Shown here: positions 16,941 to 34,181 of the stretch, piece after piece
How positions within the stretch are numbered: position 1 is the stretch's first letter
Layout: each line of letters begins with the position of its first letter
DNA from: Pseudobdellovibrionaceae bacterium
GTDB taxonomy: Bacteria; Bdellovibrionota; Bdellovibrionia; Bdellovibrionales; JAMPXM01
NCBI GenBank assembly: GCA_947462815.1
Contig: CANHQR010000038.1
Span: 1-35,842 of the forward strand
Reading direction: 5' to 3'
DNA length: 35,842 bases
The notes under the pieces: model-generated
Told to the model about the DNA's origin: nothing
Seen by the model: the letters and a program-made list of their open reading frames with translations, nothing else
Databases searched by the model: none
Translations under genes and position numbers: made by a program

Positions 16941-17963
16941 ATGGGCGCACCTTCGATGAAGCGTAAAGAAGCGACGATAGAAATCATGGAGCAATTCAGC
17001 TCAGAACAAGTGCGTGAGCGCTTGGCGGGATGGTCCGCGCCGGCCCGCGCTGGTCAAAGCCAGCTCTACGCGCTTCTTGATCCCTTCTTTGACTCCTTCG
17101 CGTTTGAGCCCTCCGTCAAACTGGATTTGCGGGACACAGATCCGCAGTTCTTTGAGATGATCGCTTGGGAAAGGGTCACTTATGAGCCACCGCGGCTTGT
17201 GCGTGTTCCTCCAGAAGGCCTCTCGACACTTCTCGATGGTTTAAGCACAGAGCGCTGGGGCGTGTTTGTCGTCTCGCGCTTTGACCTCAAAGAATTGGCC
17301 GCACATTTTTCGCGCTTTGTGATTGCCCGAGGTCCGGATGGCAGTCCCTACTTTTTGCGCTTTCATGACGCTTCGGTGCTCGGCGTGTTGCTATCGACCT
17401 GGACGCCGGCGGATCGAGCGAAGTTCTTTGGTCCTTGTGATGCGTTTGGATTGACGGATCTCGCACAAGTCGAGGTGCGTCTGGTTGAATCACCCATGGG
17501 TCCGCGGCAACGTAAAGTGCCGGAGCCCGAGGCTTGTCTGTTGGATCTTTCGCGTGAGCAGCTGGAGACTTGCGGTCAGGCTATTGAGCGCGATCTGGTG
17601 CATGTGCTGCATTGGCATCTTCGCAATCACCACGCCAAAGTCGTTCAGCACATCGACCGCGACGTTTTGGAGCGCCGAATTCAAGTCGCGATTCACAAAG
17701 CCCGCCGCTATGGCTTTCAAACAGTTTCGGACTTAGCTGGATTTTCGGCTCTGATGTTTGAGCTGGCGCCTAATTTCGATGAGCATCCCACTTTCCTCAA
17801 AGTCCTCGCGGATCGCGAACTTCCCAGCGAAATGAAGCTGCGAAGACTTTCTCAAAGTATTTCCGAAAAAGACTGGCGCGAGGCTTCAGACCGTTACGAT
17901 CGAACTTTTTGGCTGAAAAACTCAGTGCCATCCGCCGCCTTAAGGCGCCGACGAAGCGGCTAG
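16941..17963 (+). CDS. DUF4123 domain protein (type VI secretion adaptor-like), orphan
   Basis: The product is 340 residues. The N-terminal half (about residues 38-190) fits DUF4123: QLYALLDPFFD at the start, PPRLVRVPPEG, the RWGVFVVSRFDLKELAAHFSRF helix region, and SPYFLRFHDASVLGVLL, equivalent to the family's 'RFyDPrvL'. The C-terminal half is helical (HARRYGFQ-like segments and FELAPNFDEHP), as in longer family members. Known DUF4123 proteins act as chaperones/adaptors that load effectors on VgrG spikes of type VI secretion. No vgrG, PAAR or effector gene is nearby, so either the partner is elsewhere or the protein does something else. The ATG at 16941 has AGAGG very close (three bases); ATGs at 16956 and 16986 are alternatives. 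A terminator overlaps its stop codon. Confidence 0.75.
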   Translation: MGAPSMKRKEATIEIMEQFSSEQVRERLAGWSAPARAGQSQLYALLDPFFDSFAFEPSVKLDLRDTDPQFFEMIAWERVTYEPPRLVRVPPEGLSTLLDGLSTERWGVFVVSRFDLKELAAHFSRFVIARGPDGSPYFLRFHDASVLGVLLSTWTPADRAKFFGPCDAFGLTDLAQVEVRLVESPMGPRQRKVPEPEACLLDLSREQLETCGQAIERDLVHVLHWHLRNHHAKVVQHIDRDVLERRIQVAIHKARRYGFQTVSDLAGFSALMFELAPNFDEHPTFLKVLADRELPSEMKLRRLSQSISEKDWREASDRYDRTFWLKNSVPSAALRRRRSG

Positions 17964-22253: not shown

Positions 22254-23774
22254 TCAGCTCCGGTGTCGCTGCAGCGACTGCATGAGCTCAAGAGCTTGTT
22301 CGGGAGTGAGTAAGCCTTTGGCTCTCATGACATCTTGCACGTAGCGAGGGCGTCGCATGCCGACCAGGACGCTATGCACTTGGCTGAGGCCCACGAGAGC
22401 CTCGACGGCCTTGAGCGCGAGGCTTTCAGCGCCTTTGAGTTGCGGAATCAAGGCATCGATCTGTTCCATGAAAACCTGAGACTTAGCATTGGCCATGACT
22501 TCCAAGTCCGCGGTGATCAGATCGAGGTAACGAGAAATCGCATGCTCATAGCGAGATCGCCATGCTTGCGCGGCCGCATCTTGAGGTAAGCGACTCAAGG
22601 CTTGTCGAATTGAAGGGTAGATCTTCATCAAGGCAAACTCGCGCCAAGACAGCACGTCGCCGAGCTCGGCGATCGGCTCGCGAAGTTCATGGCCCCAGCG
22701 AAGGCCCATGGGAATCGGCTTGGTGCGGATAGGAAGCTGGCGCTCGAGTTCTAAGACTTGGCCCAGCGTTGCATGGAGTTCGCCTTTGATCTCCACCCCA
22801 TTGTGTTCGGCAAAACGGGCGAGGCGTTGGACTCGGCCCTCGCGACGCGCATTGAACGGGCGATTCGTGAGAACTCCGAGATCGCGAGCGGCGGCCAATT
22901 CGAGAAGGGCTTGGCCATCTTGTTGGCGAAAGAGCAGGGGCTGAGCCTCGAAGAGATTCATGGGGAACTCGATGACGCGAAAGCCGTGCTCGGCTCCGCC
23001 AGCAGCCTCCGCCGCGGCCAGCAGCTTGGTGAGCGAAACATGTGAGCTTTGATTCTCCGGTTCGGGCAGTCCGTTGGAGGAAATGCCGTACCACCGAAGG
23101 CGTCCCGCTTGGCGCTGCGTTTCGAGATAAGCAAAAGCATTTTGCAGACGCTTGTAGAATGTCTTTCGTTCGTCGATGTTCTTTCGCGAAGCTTTGAAGA
23201 AGGTCTCGGGGTTGTGAATGAGCAGCACATCGAGGTGATCGAGTTTGAGGCGCTGCAACGTGTGTTCAAGAGAAACTTCCAAGAAGGCCGGAGAAATGCA
23301 GTGCCAGACATCGGCTGAGACTTCGACCAGATCTGGCCAAAGTTCGGCGCCTGATTTTTGCGCGGCCTTGGCTTGGGCCAAGAGCGAGCCTTGAATGAAT
23401 CCGGCCTTACTGATGACTACGATTTCGTCGCGTTGAAACTCATCGGAGCTTTGAAACAAATCTTGGAGGGCTTGGCCGATGAGTCGCTCACTGGATCCGT
23501 CGGTGTAGTTGGCGCTCGTGTCGATGACATTGATCCCGCTGCGCAGCGCTTGCAACAGAGCTTCGCGATGATCGGGCTCGTGCTCGTGCACGCGATAGGA
23601 ACCGAAACCGAGTCGAGAAACCCAAAGCCCGGTGCTGCCGAGTTTGGCGGGAGCGAGGCGCGACGCCAGGCCACCATTCGATTTCATTCGATCGTGGAAG
23701 CGCTTCGTTCCTGAGGGTGTGGCATGCGACAACATCTCCTGAACATTGTCGCGAGTTTTCACCCCATGAGACAA
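22254..23774 (-). CDS. Aldo/keto reductase with a long C-terminal extension
   Basis: The frame gives 506 residues, well above the usual 300-350. Residues about 40-330 form the (beta/alpha)8 aldo/keto reductase barrel, beginning KLGSTGLWVSRLGFGSYRV. The catalytic tetrad is visible: Asp and Tyr in DTSANYTDGSSE, Lys in VISKAGF, His in LLIHNPE. The family reduces carbonyls with NADPH; the substrate is unknown. After the barrel come about 170 extra residues, largely helical (HELREPIAEL and the AWRSRYEHAISRYLDL region). These return near the end to an AKR-like SQVHSVLVGMRRPRYVQDV segment that normally closes the barrel and contacts the cofactor, so the extra helices appear to be inserted before it. 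Start uncertain: TTG at 23774, or ATGs at 23735 or 23687, none with a good binding site. Confidence 0.85.
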   Translation of the reverse strand: MSHGVKTRDNVQEMLSHATPSGTKRFHDRMKSNGGLASRLAPAKLGSTGLWVSRLGFGSYRVHEHEPDHREALLQALRSGINVIDTSANYTDGSSERLIGQALQDLFQSSDEFQRDEIVVISKAGFIQGSLLAQAKAAQKSGAELWPDLVEVSADVWHCISPAFLEVSLEHTLQRLKLDHLDVLLIHNPETFFKASRKNIDERKTFYKRLQNAFAYLETQRQAGRLRWYGISSNGLPEPENQSSHVSLTKLLAAAEAAGGAEHGFRVIEFPMNLFEAQPLLFRQQDGQALLELAAARDLGVLTNRPFNARREGRVQRLARFAEHNGVEIKGELHATLGQVLELERQLPIRTKPIPMGLRWGHELREPIAELGDVLSWREFALMKIYPSIRQALSRLPQDAAAQAWRSRYEHAISRYLDLITADLEVMANAKSQVFMEQIDALIPQLKGAESLALKAVEALVGLSQVHSVLVGMRRPRYVQDVMRAKGLLTPEQALELMQSLQRHRS

Positions 23775-28226: not shown

Positions 28227-29492
28227 TCAGGCTGCTTTGAGTGTTGGCTCGTGAGCCGTGTCCCGCAGAGCTTGCAGATCCTCAGGCTTGACGCGATCGC
28301 TGGCGATCACCGAAAGGCTCACCGGATCCGGTTGGCCGGCAAAGTGATGCGAGCCGATGGGTGAAAATTTGTCGACGAGAATCGGCACCGTGGCGGTTGG
28401 CAGATCGGCATGGGCCCTGCCGCGAAAGAGTTCAACATAGGCTTGGGTCGCGACAATGTTCGTTCCCGGGAGCCGATGCATGAGTTTCTCGATACGATGG
28501 ACCAGATCTACATCCCGCGAGGAGGTGTCGAAGCTTTTCTGGGTGACCGGACCGCGAGGTGTTCGCAGTTGTGTTTCATGAATGTGGATCGGACAAGAAA
28601 GCGCGACGTGCAGGGAGATTCCACATTCAAGCGAGACCCCACTTCGGCTCGACAGCGATCGGAGTCCAACGCGAAACTCGTTGGCCGCGGCGAGGGCCGC
28701 GCTCGCGGCGGGATGAAGTTCGTCGCTCAATCCAAAGTGCGCGTAGGCGGAGTCACCGCTATGCGATTCGCGCCAGCCACCGTGCCGTAACACGCACTCT
28801 GTGAAGAGCTGAATCACTTGCAAACGAATGGGTAACCCTTGGAACTCCACGCCATGCAGTTGGGATGAGCCAATCAGGTCAAAGGCCAAGAGTACGAGAT
28901 CTCGTCGCTCTAGTCCGTCAAGTTTTTGTTCGTGGATGCGTTGGAGAATCGCGGGTGGCACCCAACACTCCAGCTCTTTGCGGATTTCGGCCTCGCGATG
29001 CTTGGCCAGTTGCAGGTCCTTCAGTGTGGCTTCGAGCTGCTGATGGCTCTCGCGCAGCGACTGTTCGCGCATTTTGAGCTCGTGGATGAGGCTTCGGGCT
29101 TGGGACTCGGCCCGTTGCAGTTCAAGAGCTCGCTGGAGACTGGCGAGCAGGTCGTCGACGTCCCAAGGCTTTCGAATGTAATCAAAAATGTGCGCCTTGC
29201 GAACGCTCTCGACGATCAAGTCTTCGTCCGAATAACCCGTCACAATGATCCGTACAGCGTGAGGGACAATTTTTTTGGCGATTTCGAGAAACTGCACGCC
29301 CGGCATTCCCGGCATGCGTTGATCGCTGACGATCACTTGGGGTTGAATGGCGTCGATCTTTTCCAACGCTTGAGCCGCGCTGGTGAATGTGTGCACTTGC
29401 CATTCCTCCGGAAGTGCGGCTTCAAAGACGACAAGATTCTGAGGTTCGTCGTCAACATAAAGCAGTATGGGCTTTTGATCCAACTGGCTCAT
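28227..29492 (-). CDS. Response regulator with divergent class III nucleotide-cyclase domain
   Basis: The product has 421 residues. Residues 8-120 form a receiver domain with acidic D14-D15, phospho-acceptor D57 (VIVSDQRMPGM), and the K108 in IRKPW. A coiled coil follows (about 120-175). Residues 196 to about 360 resemble a class III adenylate/guanylate cyclase. The two metal aspartates are kept: D205 in LAFDLIGSS and D247 in HSGDSAYAHFG. The purine-selecting lysine is not seen before SGD, the usual asparagine of the V-N-x-A-x-R-L motif is Asp (D329, in DVDLVHRIE; R333 is retained), and the usual GIHTG is altered. Catalysis is therefore in doubt; the domain may be a sensor or binding module. 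The start ATG overlaps the kinase stop (ATGA) and has GAGGAGG four bases upstream, so it is coupled to the kinase. Confidence 0.82.
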   Translation of the reverse strand: MSQLDQKPILLYVDDEPQNLVVFEAALPEEWQVHTFTSAAQALEKIDAIQPQVIVSDQRMPGMPGVQFLEIAKKIVPHAVRIIVTGYSDEDLIVESVRKAHIFDYIRKPWDVDDLLASLQRALELQRAESQARSLIHELKMREQSLRESHQQLEATLKDLQLAKHREAEIRKELECWVPPAILQRIHEQKLDGLERRDLVLLAFDLIGSSQLHGVEFQGLPIRLQVIQLFTECVLRHGGWRESHSGDSAYAHFGLSDELHPAASAALAAANEFRVGLRSLSSRSGVSLECGISLHVALSCPIHIHETQLRTPRGPVTQKSFDTSSRDVDLVHRIEKLMHRLPGTNIVATQAYVELFRGRAHADLPTATVPILVDKFSPIGSHHFAGQPDPVSLSVIASDRVKPEDLQALRDTAHEPTLKAA

Positions 29493-31525
29493 GCGGCCTC
29501 CTCGGTCTTTTTATCAGGGGTCGAGTGCGGGGCGATCGCAGGCTTGCCGCCGCTTGAACCGTTCAGCGAATGAGCGGGTGAACCAGCGGGTAAATCGGCG
29601 TTTGAACCAGCCGGCGATGAGGCATTTGAGGCGGCGGCTCCGTCTATCGAGAGGCTTGGGGCTGGAGCCTCGCGAGGCAAAGTGACGGTGAAGCGAGTGC
29701 CTTGCCCGGGAGTTGATTGCACGCGGATCTGGCCATGATGGCGGCGAACTTCATTCATCACAATATGGAGGCCTAGGCCCGTGCCTGAGCCGACAGACTT
29801 CGTGGTGAAAAAGGGTTCAAAGATTCGAGCTTGAGTCGCGGCATCCATTCCGGCTCCGGTATCGGCGATGACCAACTCGAGATCCCCCTCGTGTTGGGGA
29901 GATGCTTGGGCTTTGATGCTGAGCTTTCCGCCCTCAGGCATGGCGTCAATCGCATTGGTCACCAGATTCATCAGAACTTGATTGAGGCCCACCACGCTTC
30001 CGTAGACTTTGCAGCTGGGATCAATGTCGATCTCAGTTTCGATTCGACCTCGGAGTTTGCTTCTCAAGATGGTGAGTGTGGTTTCCGCAACCTGGCGGAG
30101 GGACACGTCGTTGAACTTGGCCTGATTGAGTCCGGTGTAGGATCGCAGCGAACGCACGATCTCCACAGTGAGTTGGAGGCCCTCTTTCATGACGGAGAAC
30201 AAATTTTGTGTTTTTGCGCGATCCGTCTCGGGCATCTTGGCTTGGACCAAACGCTCCAGTGGCTGAAGTGCGCCGTTCACGTAGTTGAGAGAGTTATTGA
30301 TTTCATGAGCGATACCGGCTGACAGAGTACCCAAAGAGGCGAGTTTTGCTGACTGAACGAGTTCCGCTTGGGCCTCTTTGAGAGCGAGCGTCTTGCGTTC
30401 GACTTCGCTCTCCAGGTGAGCCCGCAAATAGTCCCGTTCACGGTAGGTGTCGCTGATGCGTTCGTTGACGGCCAAAGCGAGGAAGAAAACCGATCCTGAA
30501 TAAGCAAGGGGGAACAGTGGGGGAGTGTCGAGGACTCCCGATACTGAAAAGATCTCGTTGAAGCTGCCCAGAGAAAAAAGCAGCAAAGTCCCTGACTGCA
30601 AAACCGACCGACGACGCGAGCGTCCGCGATAAACATCCATCAGCGTCTTTTTGAGCGGTAGGATCACGAGACTCAGTGAAATGGCAAAAGGTAACGATGT
30701 CCCCAATTGGATCGCATCACCGGAATCGGCCATGGCGATGATGGCCACAGCGATCGCCACGTGAGCCGCGTAGATGGTGAAAAAGCGTGTGCCGATCAAG
30801 TTCTCCAGGCGCAAAGAATAAGCCAGCAGAAGAATACTGAACCAAACGCCGAGGTCGGCAATTCGGTGGGCTGTTAGCATACTCAATTCAAATCCGTAAG
30901 CGTCGCTGACGGTGAGTGTGAAATACACAGCGGAGAAGAGCGCGCTGAGAGTGACGGCCGCATTGAGGCGGCCAGGTACCTTGCCGGCAAAGAGCGTCAG
31001 AGAAAAGAGTCCAAGAACGATGGCCATGCCGACACCCGCGATGTGGAGGGTGCGAGCAAAGAAATTGTTGAAGCTCGCACGCGGGGCAAGTCGGGGTTCA
31101 TAGGGAATGCGCGCAAAGTAGGCCGAGTAGCTTGTCACTCGCCAAATGAGGCCAACGGAATCGGTCGGGATCGAGGCGCAAGCGAGCGATGGCGAGGCAT
31201 AAAAGGCACTAGCGCGCTGGAAGCTTGGATCGCCTTGTTGCAGAACTTTGTTGTGTACACCTCGGGCATCAACTGACCAGACTTCATGCGCGCCGTGAAT
31301 CACGCGCGGAAAATTGATGAAGGCTTGCGGATCAGTTTGGCAAGCTTCAAGAATGGACGTGCTCTCAGATTCGTAGAGCCGAATCTCGGCTTGTTGGGAT
31401 GAGTCGAGAGCGGTTCGGATTTGCCATTCGGCTTGAGTCCAATGGGTAGAGTCGGGCGGCGTGTTGGGGACTCCCAACAATTGCGAAAGACCCAGCAGAA
31501 TCGCCACCGCCCACTCATGAAGCAT
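29489..31525 (-). CDS. Seven-transmembrane sensor histidine kinase
   Basis: The product has 678 residues. A signal or anchor helix (about 1-20) is followed by a periplasmic domain (about 25-155) and seven membrane helices (about 160-355). A coiled-coil linker follows, then the kinase core with the phospho-accepting H407 in [15 protein letters not shown]. The N box ([13 protein letters not shown]), the G1 box ([10 protein letters not shown]), and the F/G2 boxes ([10 protein letters not shown] and GTGLGLHIV) are intact. The architecture is that of 7TMR-DISM-type receptors. The last 55 residues are a Ser/Ala/Pro/Gly-rich low-complexity tail. Its start overlaps the upstream synthase stop (TGATG); the TTG at 31528 is an alternative. 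Its stop overlaps the REC-cyclase gene start. It is the likely signal receptor of this operon. Confidence 0.92.
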
Positions 31526-33201
31526 CAAGAAGCCCGCGCTTCATCCACGCTGCTAAACTTGAAGTCGGCTTTCAACATCGCCATCTCCAAAATGTTCAGC
31601 ACCAAATCTAAGTCGCTTTGTGTGTGAGTCGCCATCACGGTGAAACGGAAGCGACAGTTGTTCTTGCTCACCGCCGGATACACAATCGGTACGACGAACA
31701 CACCGTGTTCCATCAGAACCGAATTCATGATCTCGAGTTTCTTTTCGTCGCCGACGATCACAGGAACCACAGCGGATTCGTGGGAGGCTGGCAAGTGGTA
31801 GCCGAGGTGGGCGAGTCCCTTCTTAAAATGTGCGAGGTTGTCGCGCAGTTTCTGGAGGCGCTCGCGGTCGCGCTCGAAGATCTCAATGGCTTTGAGAGCT
31901 GCGGCCGCCGTAGAGGGCGGAATTGAAACTGAAAACACGTGGGCTCGGGCCCAGCACCAGAGCCAATCAGCGACCTCTTCGCTAACGGCCGCAAATCCAC
32001 CGATGCCTCCGCCGATTTTCGAGAAAGTTCCCATGATCACATCGACGTCCTGATAGGCGTTATACTTTTCAACGGCACCCATGCCGTTTTCGCCGATCAC
32101 GCCAAAGCTGTGGGCCTCATCGATCATCAAACGCGCTTTGTTTTCTTTGGCTGTCTTGACCAGTTCGTCGACCGGGGCCACGTCACCATCCATCGAGAAC
32201 ACGCCTTCGCTCACAAGAAGGCAGCCCGCGTATTGATCGCGATGCTCACGCATCACGCGTCGCAGGTGGGCGACGGAGTTGTGTTTGAAGAAGCGGGCCG
32301 CACCCTTCGACATTTGCATCGCGTCTTGAATCGAGGCATGCGCTAACATGTCGGCGACGACAAGATCCTGAGCCTGAACGAGGCTCGAGATGATGCCCAC
32401 GTTTGCGGCATAGCCGGAATTGAAGAGGACAACCCGGTCTTTCTTGAACATCTTGGCGAGCTTCTCGCTCAACTCCACATGGAGGCGCGTGATACCCGTC
32501 GTCACAGGCGAGCCTGTCGAGCCAAAGCCATAGTCATCGATGGCTTTCTTGGCGGCCTCTTTAACTTCGGGGTGTGCGGCGAGCCCCAAGTAGTCATTGG
32601 AACCCATGATGATGTAATCTTGGCGTCCGCCGCGGCGTTTTCGATCCAAAGAAATTCGCGGCCCTTGCGAGGCTTCGCGAATATTTTCATAGGAGAACTT
32701 CGCGGTCTTTCGCCAATCTCGCATGAAAACAGAAAACTGATGCACTTTGCTAAAGATGTCGACATTTGAGCTCGCGGTTTCGGCAAAAGAGGCCATGCTG
32801 AAACGATCCGGCGATAGCTCAAATTCAAATGGTGCATCTGGCTCTTCCAAGGTCTGCAAAAAGTGTTTGGAAAGCGGGGAGTCCACAGGAACCTTGGCGT
32901 CGACACAAGAGAAGCCAAAAAACTGTCGACCGTCTCGAAGTCCGGTGGTCCTCAGCACCATACGACCTAGAGTATACTCGTGATCGCGGAAGGTGATCTT
33001 GGCGGCGGGAACCAGGGCGCCGACGTGAATTTGCTCGTCGGGTGGCAATTCTGCACTCCACACTCCGACGCCCGTGAACGAGACATTGTCGAGGGGGAGG
33101 GTGAGCTTTGTTCCCGTGGGAAGCTCGACATGAAACATCACTTCCGCATCAGGCTTAATTTGAAAACGGCGATGCCGCATTCGGCGAATCAGATCGCTCA
33201 T
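31525..33201 (-). CDS. PilZ domain fused to a PLP-dependent alpha-oxoamine synthase
   Basis: The protein has 558 residues from the ATG at 33201, which has GGGAG five bases upstream; the open frame runs on to 33420. Residues 1 to about 115 form a PilZ domain with both c-di-GMP motifs, R7-x3-R11 and N39-x-S41-x2-G44. Residues about 150-558 form an alpha-oxoamine synthase (KBL/BioF/serine palmitoyltransferase/CqsA fold). They include SNDYLGLAAHPEVK, GSTGSP, H288 (AHAS) stacking on the cofactor, the D361-E-A-H364 pair, and the PLP lysine K395 in GTFSKIGGGIGGF. These enzymes condense an amino acid with an acyl-CoA. The product could be an amino-ketone signal or a sphingoid base; sequence alone does not say which. 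It is first in the operon with the kinase and REC-cyclase genes. A PilZ-synthase fusion is unusual. Confidence 0.88.
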   Translation of the reverse strand: MSDLIRRMRHRRFQIKPDAEVMFHVELPTGTKLTLPLDNVSFTGVGVWSAELPPDEQIHVGALVPAAKITFRDHEYTLGRMVLRTTGLRDGRQFFGFSCVDAKVPVDSPLSKHFLQTLEEPDAPFEFELSPDRFSMASFAETASSNVDIFSKVHQFSVFMRDWRKTAKFSYENIREASQGPRISLDRKRRGGRQDYIIMGSNDYLGLAAHPEVKEAAKKAIDDYGFGSTGSPVTTGITRLHVELSEKLAKMFKKDRVVLFNSGYAANVGIISSLVQAQDLVVADMLAHASIQDAMQMSKGAARFFKHNSVAHLRRVMREHRDQYAGCLLVSEGVFSMDGDVAPVDELVKTAKENKARLMIDEAHSFGVIGENGMGAVEKYNAYQDVDVIMGTFSKIGGGIGGFAAVSEEVADWLWCWARAHVFSVSIPPSTAAAALKAIEIFERDRERLQKLRDNLAHFKKGLAHLGYHLPASHESAVVPVIVGDEKKLEIMNSVLMEHGVFVVPIVYPAVSKNNCRFRFTVMATHTQSDLDLVLNILEMAMLKADFKFSSVDEARAS

Positions 33202-33422: not shown

Positions 33423-34181
33423 ATGACCCAGCTCTCCGTGAACATCAACAAATTGGCAACGCTTCGAAACTCTCGGGGAAAGAACAACCCCGATCTCAGC
33501 TCTTGGGTGACGCGGATCGAGGCCGAAGGCGTACACGGCATTACGGTGCATCCTCGACCGGATGAGCGGCATATCCGCTACCAAGATGTGCGTGTTCTTC
33601 GTCCGCTGGTGCGAACCGAGTTCAACATCGAAGGCTATCCGGATGAAGCTTGGATGCGTCTTGTGGAGGAGGTTCAACCGGCCCAGGCGACTCTCGTGCC
33701 GGATCCTCCCCACGCCCTGACATCGGATGCGGGTTGGTTGGTGCAAGCTCAAGCTTCAACTTTGGAAGCCGTGGTGAAGCGCCTCAAGCGGCAACGCTTA
33801 CGCGTCTCCTTGTTTGTCGATCCCAAGACCTTCTCCACGGAAGATGCGCGGATTGCGCGAGACCTGGGCGTGGATCGCGTCGAGCTCTATACGGAAGCCT
33901 TCGCGGAGGCTCATGCCAAGCCCGAGGCTTTGAACTCTCCGGCTTTGATTGAACAGCTCAAGGCGTACCGGCAGGCGGCGGATCAAGCTCTGGCTTGCGG
34001 TTTAGGCCTCAATGCGGGTCATGATTTGAACCTCGAAAACTTGCCGACGCTATTGCAACAGATTCCTGAAATTCAAGAAGTCTCAATCGGACATGCGCTG
34101 ATTTGCGATGCCTTGAACTACGGAATGGTCGAAACCTTGCGTCGTTACCTTGCTGCAACTCAAAGTCCTCAACGCCGCTGA
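33423..34181 (+). CDS. pdxJ: Pyridoxine 5'-phosphate synthase
   Basis: The 252-residue TIM-barrel enzyme condenses deoxyxylulose 5-phosphate with 3-amino-2-oxopropyl phosphate in the DXP-dependent route to pyridoxal phosphate. The N-terminus SVNINKLATLRNSRG, the GVHGITVHPRPDERHIR stretch with its active-site His/Arg, the EFNIEGYPDE segment, VELYTEAFAEA and GLGLNAGHDLNLENL match PdxJ throughout. The length is normal (E. coli PdxJ has 243). The ATG at 33423 lacks a clear ribosome binding site. It is divergent from the PLP-dependent synthase across 221 bases. The pairing suggests, but does not prove, coordinated cofactor supply. No terminator is seen before feoA. Confidence 0.95.
   Translation: MTQLSVNINKLATLRNSRGKNNPDLSSWVTRIEAEGVHGITVHPRPDERHIRYQDVRVLRPLVRTEFNIEGYPDEAWMRLVEEVQPAQATLVPDPPHALTSDAGWLVQAQASTLEAVVKRLKRQRLRVSLFVDPKTFSTEDARIARDLGVDRVELYTEAFAEAHAKPEALNSPALIEQLKAYRQAADQALACGLGLNAGHDLNLENLPTLLQQIPEIQEVSIGHALICDALNYGMVETLRRYLAATQSPQRR

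Follow-up and report, generated by a model that had tools for sequence, protein, structure and literature searches.

Three overlapping genes in a Pseudobdellovibrionaceae genome, encoding an alpha-oxoamine synthase (AOS), a membrane histidine kinase and a response regulator, raise the question of whether they form a small-molecule signalling system comparable to Cqs or Lqs. The window analysed here, 35,842 nucleotides long, is one entire contig (C38) of genome G000. A sequence-only reading had described the three genes as overlapping at both junctions, and we found the minus-strand ORFs and both overlaps at the positions listed in Table 1. The TGATG overlap with the synthase gene makes ATG 31525 the most likely start of the kinase, and not TTG 31528. 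An upstream extension of the synthase ORF to GTG 33420 is possible; the part aligning with relatives starts at ATG 33201. The pyridoxine 5′-phosphate synthase gene pdxJ (33423-34181, plus strand) lies divergent from the PLP-dependent synthase gene, and it was absent from all other trio loci in a 20-locus neighbourhood comparison. Elsewhere in the window, the ORFs at 22254-23774 (506 aa) and 16941-17963 (340 aa) gave no NCBIfam match at E 1e-20.

Table 1. Genes, overlaps and predicted domains of the three-gene locus (window coordinates; residues are those of the respective protein)
Feature	Position	Strand	Length or residues	Basis or motif
Synthase gene	33201..31525	-	558 aa	ORF
Kinase gene	31525 or 31528..29489	-	678-679 aa	ORF
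Regulator gene	29492..28227	-	421 aa	ORF
Synthase/kinase stop/start overlap	31523..31527	-		TGATG
Kinase/regulator start/stop overlap	29489..29492	-		ATGA
PilZ-fold domain of synthase	32827..33201	-	1-125	AlphaFold, Foldseek, motif conservation
AOS domain of synthase	31525..32767	-	about 145-558	NCBIfam, Pfam, residue mapping on E. coli BioF
Membrane histidine kinase	29489..31525	-	extracytoplasmic domain about 25-155; about 7 helices 156-354; DHp H408; HATPase 513-620	
Response regulator	28227..29492	-	REC (D57); coiled coil 112-175; class III cyclase fold 190-400	

The trio is more than a chance arrangement, since the identical three genes are adjacent again in other genomes. A synthase profile search of 369 Bdellovibrionota genomes returned 18 full-length PilZ-AOS genes in 17 genomes, all scoring 631 bits or more; one of these genes (in G205) is cut by a contig end; the next match below this set scored 453 bits and began only at profile position 131. 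The sensor profile of the kinase was present in 20 of the 369 genomes, and it occurred in 16 of the 17 PilZ-AOS genomes versus 4 of the 352 others (Fisher p = 2e-23, a value that ignores relatedness). We compared 20 trio loci with unrelated flanks, including two paralogues of a single genome and several close relatives. The only families common to at least three of these loci were the synthase (20 loci), the kinase (19) and the regulator (18). A fourth conserved partner was sought across the 20 loci and none was found, nor do genes for a ceramide synthase, a reductase or an ACP recur around the module. The order synthase-kinase-regulator is collinear at most loci; the regulator runs the opposite way in G018 and the two copies of G050, and the kinase does so in L046. 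Moreover, pairwise distances in any one of the three proteins are correlated with those in the others (r 0.58-0.87, reached in 0-1 of 5000 permutations), to which shared descent contributes. Taken together, these comparisons indicate that the trio, whose recurrence the sequence-only reading had put forward as a check, is a real module, conserved and co-inherited as a unit.

The pattern has exceptions. G255 carries the synthase with no kinase/regulator pair beside it, and the sensor was not found anywhere in that genome. The kinase sits at a contig end in G219 and G323, which are also exceptions to co-occurrence, and the sensor occurs without a full-length synthase in G002 and G033, fused in G002 to a CheA-like part. 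Since the sensor occurs in these two genomes without the synthase, its ligand need not be the synthase product. The G002 gene (L221:6107-8752), which comes from the window's own family, joins the sensor to a CheA-like histidine-phosphotransfer and ATPase part and is a possible eavesdropper. At L046 (2323-3297), the sensor domain also occurs on its own, with no kinase part, beside the PilZ-AOS gene, the kinase there being inverted. G050 holds two paralogous copies of the module (L029 and L030), in both of which the regulator is short, without the cyclase part, and is followed by a metallo-beta-lactamase-fold gene.

The full-length synthase was found in none of the 12 other genomes searched from the window's own family, and the patchy distribution of the module suggests that loss or transfer is frequent. 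Further loci came from a named collection. One of them belongs to Ca. Bdellovibrio qaytius (L040, CP025734; complete genome), an epibiotic predator (PMC11656739) and a known organism in which the module is open to experiment. Outside the phylum, a Gammaproteobacteria MAG (L059) carries a PilZ-AOS gene, with PilZ at 16.8 bits and below the cut-off, and a divergently oriented kinase gene whose product has the sensor of the module; among 369 genomes of its class, the sensor was not found beyond L059's own. A Manganitrophaceae MAG (L062) has a PilZ-AOS gene with PilZ above the cut-off (33.5 bits), and the kinases that come after it bear another type of sensor. In this stretch (L062:5716-12124) the PilZ-AOS gene precedes a hybrid kinase bearing a HisKA_7TM sensor as well as a REC-kinase, and the arrangement looks independent. 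Both synthases fall outside the main PilZ-AOS clade, suggesting that the joining of PilZ to AOS with an adjacent kinase may have arisen more than once.

We then asked what kind of enzyme the synthase is. Residues 192-540 match the AOS family in Pfam and NCBIfam. The best-scoring NCBIfam model was BioF (368 bits, cut-off 426), followed by TIGR01825 (340 bits, cut-off 535), a CFB-type serine palmitoyltransferase (SPT) model (324 bits, cut-off 640), another SPT model (314 bits, cut-off 500) and the AHK-synthase model NF005526 (212 bits, cut-off 428). All these scores lie below the cut-offs, and the synthase thus passes none of the AOS models. CqsA was among its weaker AOS matches in the PDB, at 129 bits against 261 for the best. 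The mapped active-site residues of E. coli BioF, N47, H133, S179, D204 and H207, and its PLP lysine K236 are all kept, as N202, H288, S336, D361, H364 and the PLP lysine K395. On this mapping, the synthase is a PLP-dependent AOS with intact catalytic residues. It probably makes a small fatty molecule.

G000 has no BioB match, no ceramide-synthase-like GNAT homologue (one probe) and no second AOS, which speaks against biotin or ordinary sphingolipid synthesis. Biotin synthesis was rejected as its role on the grounds that 12 of the 15 trio genomes, including G000, have no BioB match and that the synthase scores below the BioF cut-off. Canonical ceramide synthesis is disfavoured by the lack of a ceramide-synthase-like GNAT homologue in 10 of the 15 trio genomes, again including G000 (one probe only). 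Two other AOS settings are recorded here. G018, from Bdellovibrionota, has five AOS-family genes within one genome. On a Thioclava plasmid (L156, NZ_CP135444), an AOS protein bears an N-terminal extension resembling an acyl-carrier domain, and its gene adjoins separate ACP, ketosynthase and AMP-ligase genes in a biosynthetic cluster.

The N-terminus of the synthase had been assigned a PilZ domain, and structure prediction bore this out. Pfam PilZ was not detected in any of seven window-type synthases scanned, and hhalign of the N-terminus with the PilZ domains of G000 itself gave a weak alignment (12%). Despite this, the structure model settled the fold: the AlphaFold model of residues 1-125 (pLDDT 85.8, pTM 0.76) retrieved PilZ or PilZ-containing entries, including YcgR, MrkH, BcsA and Alg44, at Foldseek ranks 1-18 and at most of the first 30, with YcgR as the top match (E 1.4e-4). 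As modelled, residues 1-125 adopt the PilZ beta-barrel fold. Eight positions, R9, R12, S41, E75, G79, R80, D101 and P105, do not vary across 19 homologues. Of the two PilZ motifs, the first reads R9xxR12, also invariant and one residue shorter than the canonical RxxxR, while the second, [D/N/E]xSxxG, is kept (S41, G44). G000 encodes 13 PilZ proteins above the Pfam cut-off, indicating that c-di-GMP effectors are plentiful in this genome. The proposed link of the module to c-di-GMP or another nucleotide rests on such folds and motifs.

The affiliation of the synthase was studied in a tree of 62 AOS proteins. The references comprised E. coli BioF and KBL, annotated plasmid ALAS, BioF and KBL genes, an SPT chain from the PDB with one plasmid AOS above an SPT equivalog cut-off, and, for CqsA, Vibrio and Ramlibacter members above the NF005526 cut-off together with homologues found with Vibrio CqsA, which itself matches PDB CqsA at 558 bits. 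The PilZ-AOS synthases formed a single clade (support 100/100), separate from the CqsA clade of five references (100/100), from the SPT clade (98/95) and from KBL, and also outside BioF. AU tests on a reduced set rejected neither an unrooted grouping of PilZ-AOS with CqsA (p = 0.10) nor one with KBL/BioF/ALAS (p = 0.43). It is therefore safe to state that PilZ-AOS is a distinct AOS clade within none of the CqsA, SPT, KBL and BioF families, and that the AU test rejects neither deep grouping. For the sequence-only reading, this means that the synthase stands apart from SPT, KBL and BioF and that its kinase and regulator neighbours persist in relatives, the reverse of the outcome named there as damaging to the proposal; membership of the synthase in the Cqs/Lqs family was not borne out.

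The kinase has an N-terminal hydrophobic segment, an extracytoplasmic domain of about 135 aa and then about seven helices, a topology predicted from hydropathy only and in keeping with the earlier description of a 7TM kinase. In the extracytoplasmic domain W30, C63 and C117 are invariant, as are H408 of the kinase DHp and D57 of the regulator across the loci compared. The sensor had no Pfam relative, including no match to any 7TM or DISM model, and no natural PDB relative by profile. A Vibrio CqsS control aligned with the kinase part only (residues 392-619, E 2e-13), and the sensor region showed no detectable similarity to this one Vibrio CqsS (E 0.66 or worse).

The output domain of the regulator, previously described as cyclase-like, was examined by modelling (pLDDT 84.7), and Foldseek matched it to CyaC, Cya2 and CyaB with target TM values of 0.67-0.76, indicating that the modelled C-terminus has a class III nucleotide-cyclase fold. 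The metal-binding D205 and D247 together with R333 are invariant in 14 relatives, in all of which the transition-state Asn is replaced by Asp (D329); the window regulator has Ser where the alignment to Cya2 places the purine Lys. These two replacements suggest that the cyclase domain may be inactive or altered, and the regulator may be either a cyclase that is active though unusual or an output that binds nucleotide without catalysis.

In the best reading, an acyl-aminoketone-type molecule would be made under gating by c-di-GMP and linked to a receptor pair of its own. We propose that the PilZ domain would read c-di-GMP and gate the synthase. This enzyme would condense an acyl thioester with an amino acid, or with an amine donor akin to one, and so yield a small lipid of aminoketone type. 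This product, or an envelope state that depends on it, would be monitored by the kinase, which would phosphorylate D57 of the regulator, whose cyclase-fold domain would be the output. That the trio is a self-contained signalling module, Cqs- or Lqs-like in its working and built from different parts, has in our estimate close to an even chance. The more specific proposal is unlikely as a whole, if still worth stating: an undescribed class of small-molecule signalling in predatory and related bacteria, in which the synthase, gated directly by c-di-GMP, would produce a fatty autoinducer of aminoketone type. A dedicated 7TM receptor kinase whose extracytoplasmic domain bears cysteines would sense this autoinducer, and the regulator, through its cyclase output, would link it to a second nucleotide messenger.

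The same genes could instead serve regulated synthesis of an envelope lipid, a sphingoid-base-like or other aminoketone lipid whose production the kinase and regulator, sensing an envelope or prey cue, would switch together with c-di-GMP acting via PilZ, with no cell-to-cell signal. Serine palmitoyltransferases are among the AOS enzymes with this fold, and the relatives G019, G021, G025 and G016 have SPT-like AOS genes adjoining a GNAT-type gene; the synthase clade is, however, distinct from the SPT clade, and the ceramide-synthase homologue is missing from most trio genomes, G000 among them, by the single probe noted above. The extracytoplasmic domain of the kinase would suit envelope sensing, and the occurrence of the sensor without the synthase fits as well, but no lipid gene recurs in the cassette at the 20 loci. 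We regard this reading as somewhat improbable, with a real share of the probability nonetheless. The lack of a recurring biosynthetic partner and the nearly constant presence of two signalling genes favour signalling over bulk lipid synthesis, short of proof.

It is improbable that the synthase is a metabolic AOS, BioF- or KBL-like for instance, that is accompanied by a regulatory pair and carries a vestigial PilZ domain. BioF does give the top NCBIfam score, under its cut-off, and the first PilZ motif departs from RxxxR with [D/N/E]xSxxG kept; against this stand the absence of a BioB match from most trio genomes (12 of 15, with G000 among them), the position of the clade apart from BioF and KBL, and the invariance of E75, G79, R80, D101 and P105 in 19 homologues, unlike a decaying domain. 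A diverged true member of the Cqs/Lqs family making an alpha-hydroxyketone is already disfavoured and, in our view, very improbable: the PilZ-AOS clade lies outside the five CqsA references (each clade at 100/100), the AHK-synthase and PDB CqsA scores are low, and the sensor, with its large extracytoplasmic domain, is unlike that of the one Vibrio CqsS compared. The shared gene logic of synthase, multi-helix kinase and REC protein and the unrejected unrooted grouping with CqsA (p 0.10) speak for it.

In Bdellovibrionota, the decision between predation and growth depends on c-di-GMP (PMC3271064). If PilZ truly gates the synthase, these bacteria would have a candidate chemical signal of endogenous origin, together with a receptor dedicated to it. 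A PLP-dependent carbon-carbon bond-forming enzyme would then be under direct c-di-GMP control, a case of which we found no example in the open literature searched. Searches there for PilZ with AOS, SPT or aminotransferase returned nothing on point, and no description of a PilZ-AOS protein was found in this open literature, most subscription papers being outside its reach.

Compared with SPT, BioF, KBL and ALAS, the module synthase has the same fold and all catalytic residues, whereas it forms its own clade, carries an N-terminal PilZ domain and has two-component neighbours at nearly every locus. With the PilZ effectors YcgR, MrkH, BcsA and Alg44 its N-terminus shares the predicted fold and [D/N/E]xSxxG, but here the PilZ fold is fused to a PLP enzyme, has RxxR in place of RxxxR and is missed by Pfam PilZ. 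The kinase resembles 7TMR-DISM-type receptor kinases in its signal/anchor helix, extracytoplasmic domain, roughly seven helices and cytoplasmic kinase, and differs from them in having no Pfam 7TM or DISM match and no PDB relative by profile. The regulator is like class III cyclases with REC (CyaC, Cya2 and CyaB folds) in its fold, two metal Asp and transition-state Arg, while Asp stands for Asn and Ser for the purine Lys, and its activity is putative.

In CqsA/CqsS of Vibrio and LqsA/LqsS/LqsR of Legionella, an AOS-fold synthase is encoded beside a multi-helix kinase and a REC protein (PMC3376566). The module has the same overall layout, its PLP-dependent AOS-fold synthase being encoded next to a membrane histidine kinase with several helices and to a REC protein, and to this extent the proposal of a Cqs/Lqs-like system stood. 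Kinship did not follow, given the separate clade, the 212 bits against a cut-off of 428 and a sensor unlike that of the one Vibrio CqsS compared. The module synthase comes from another AOS clade and has a PilZ domain, its kinase combines about seven helices, where the CqsS/LqsS sensor has six, with a large extracytoplasmic domain, and its regulator ends in a predicted class III cyclase fold. The layout resembles that of a chemical signalling circuit, made here of parts unrelated to the known ones, a variant of the synthase-kinase-regulator logic.
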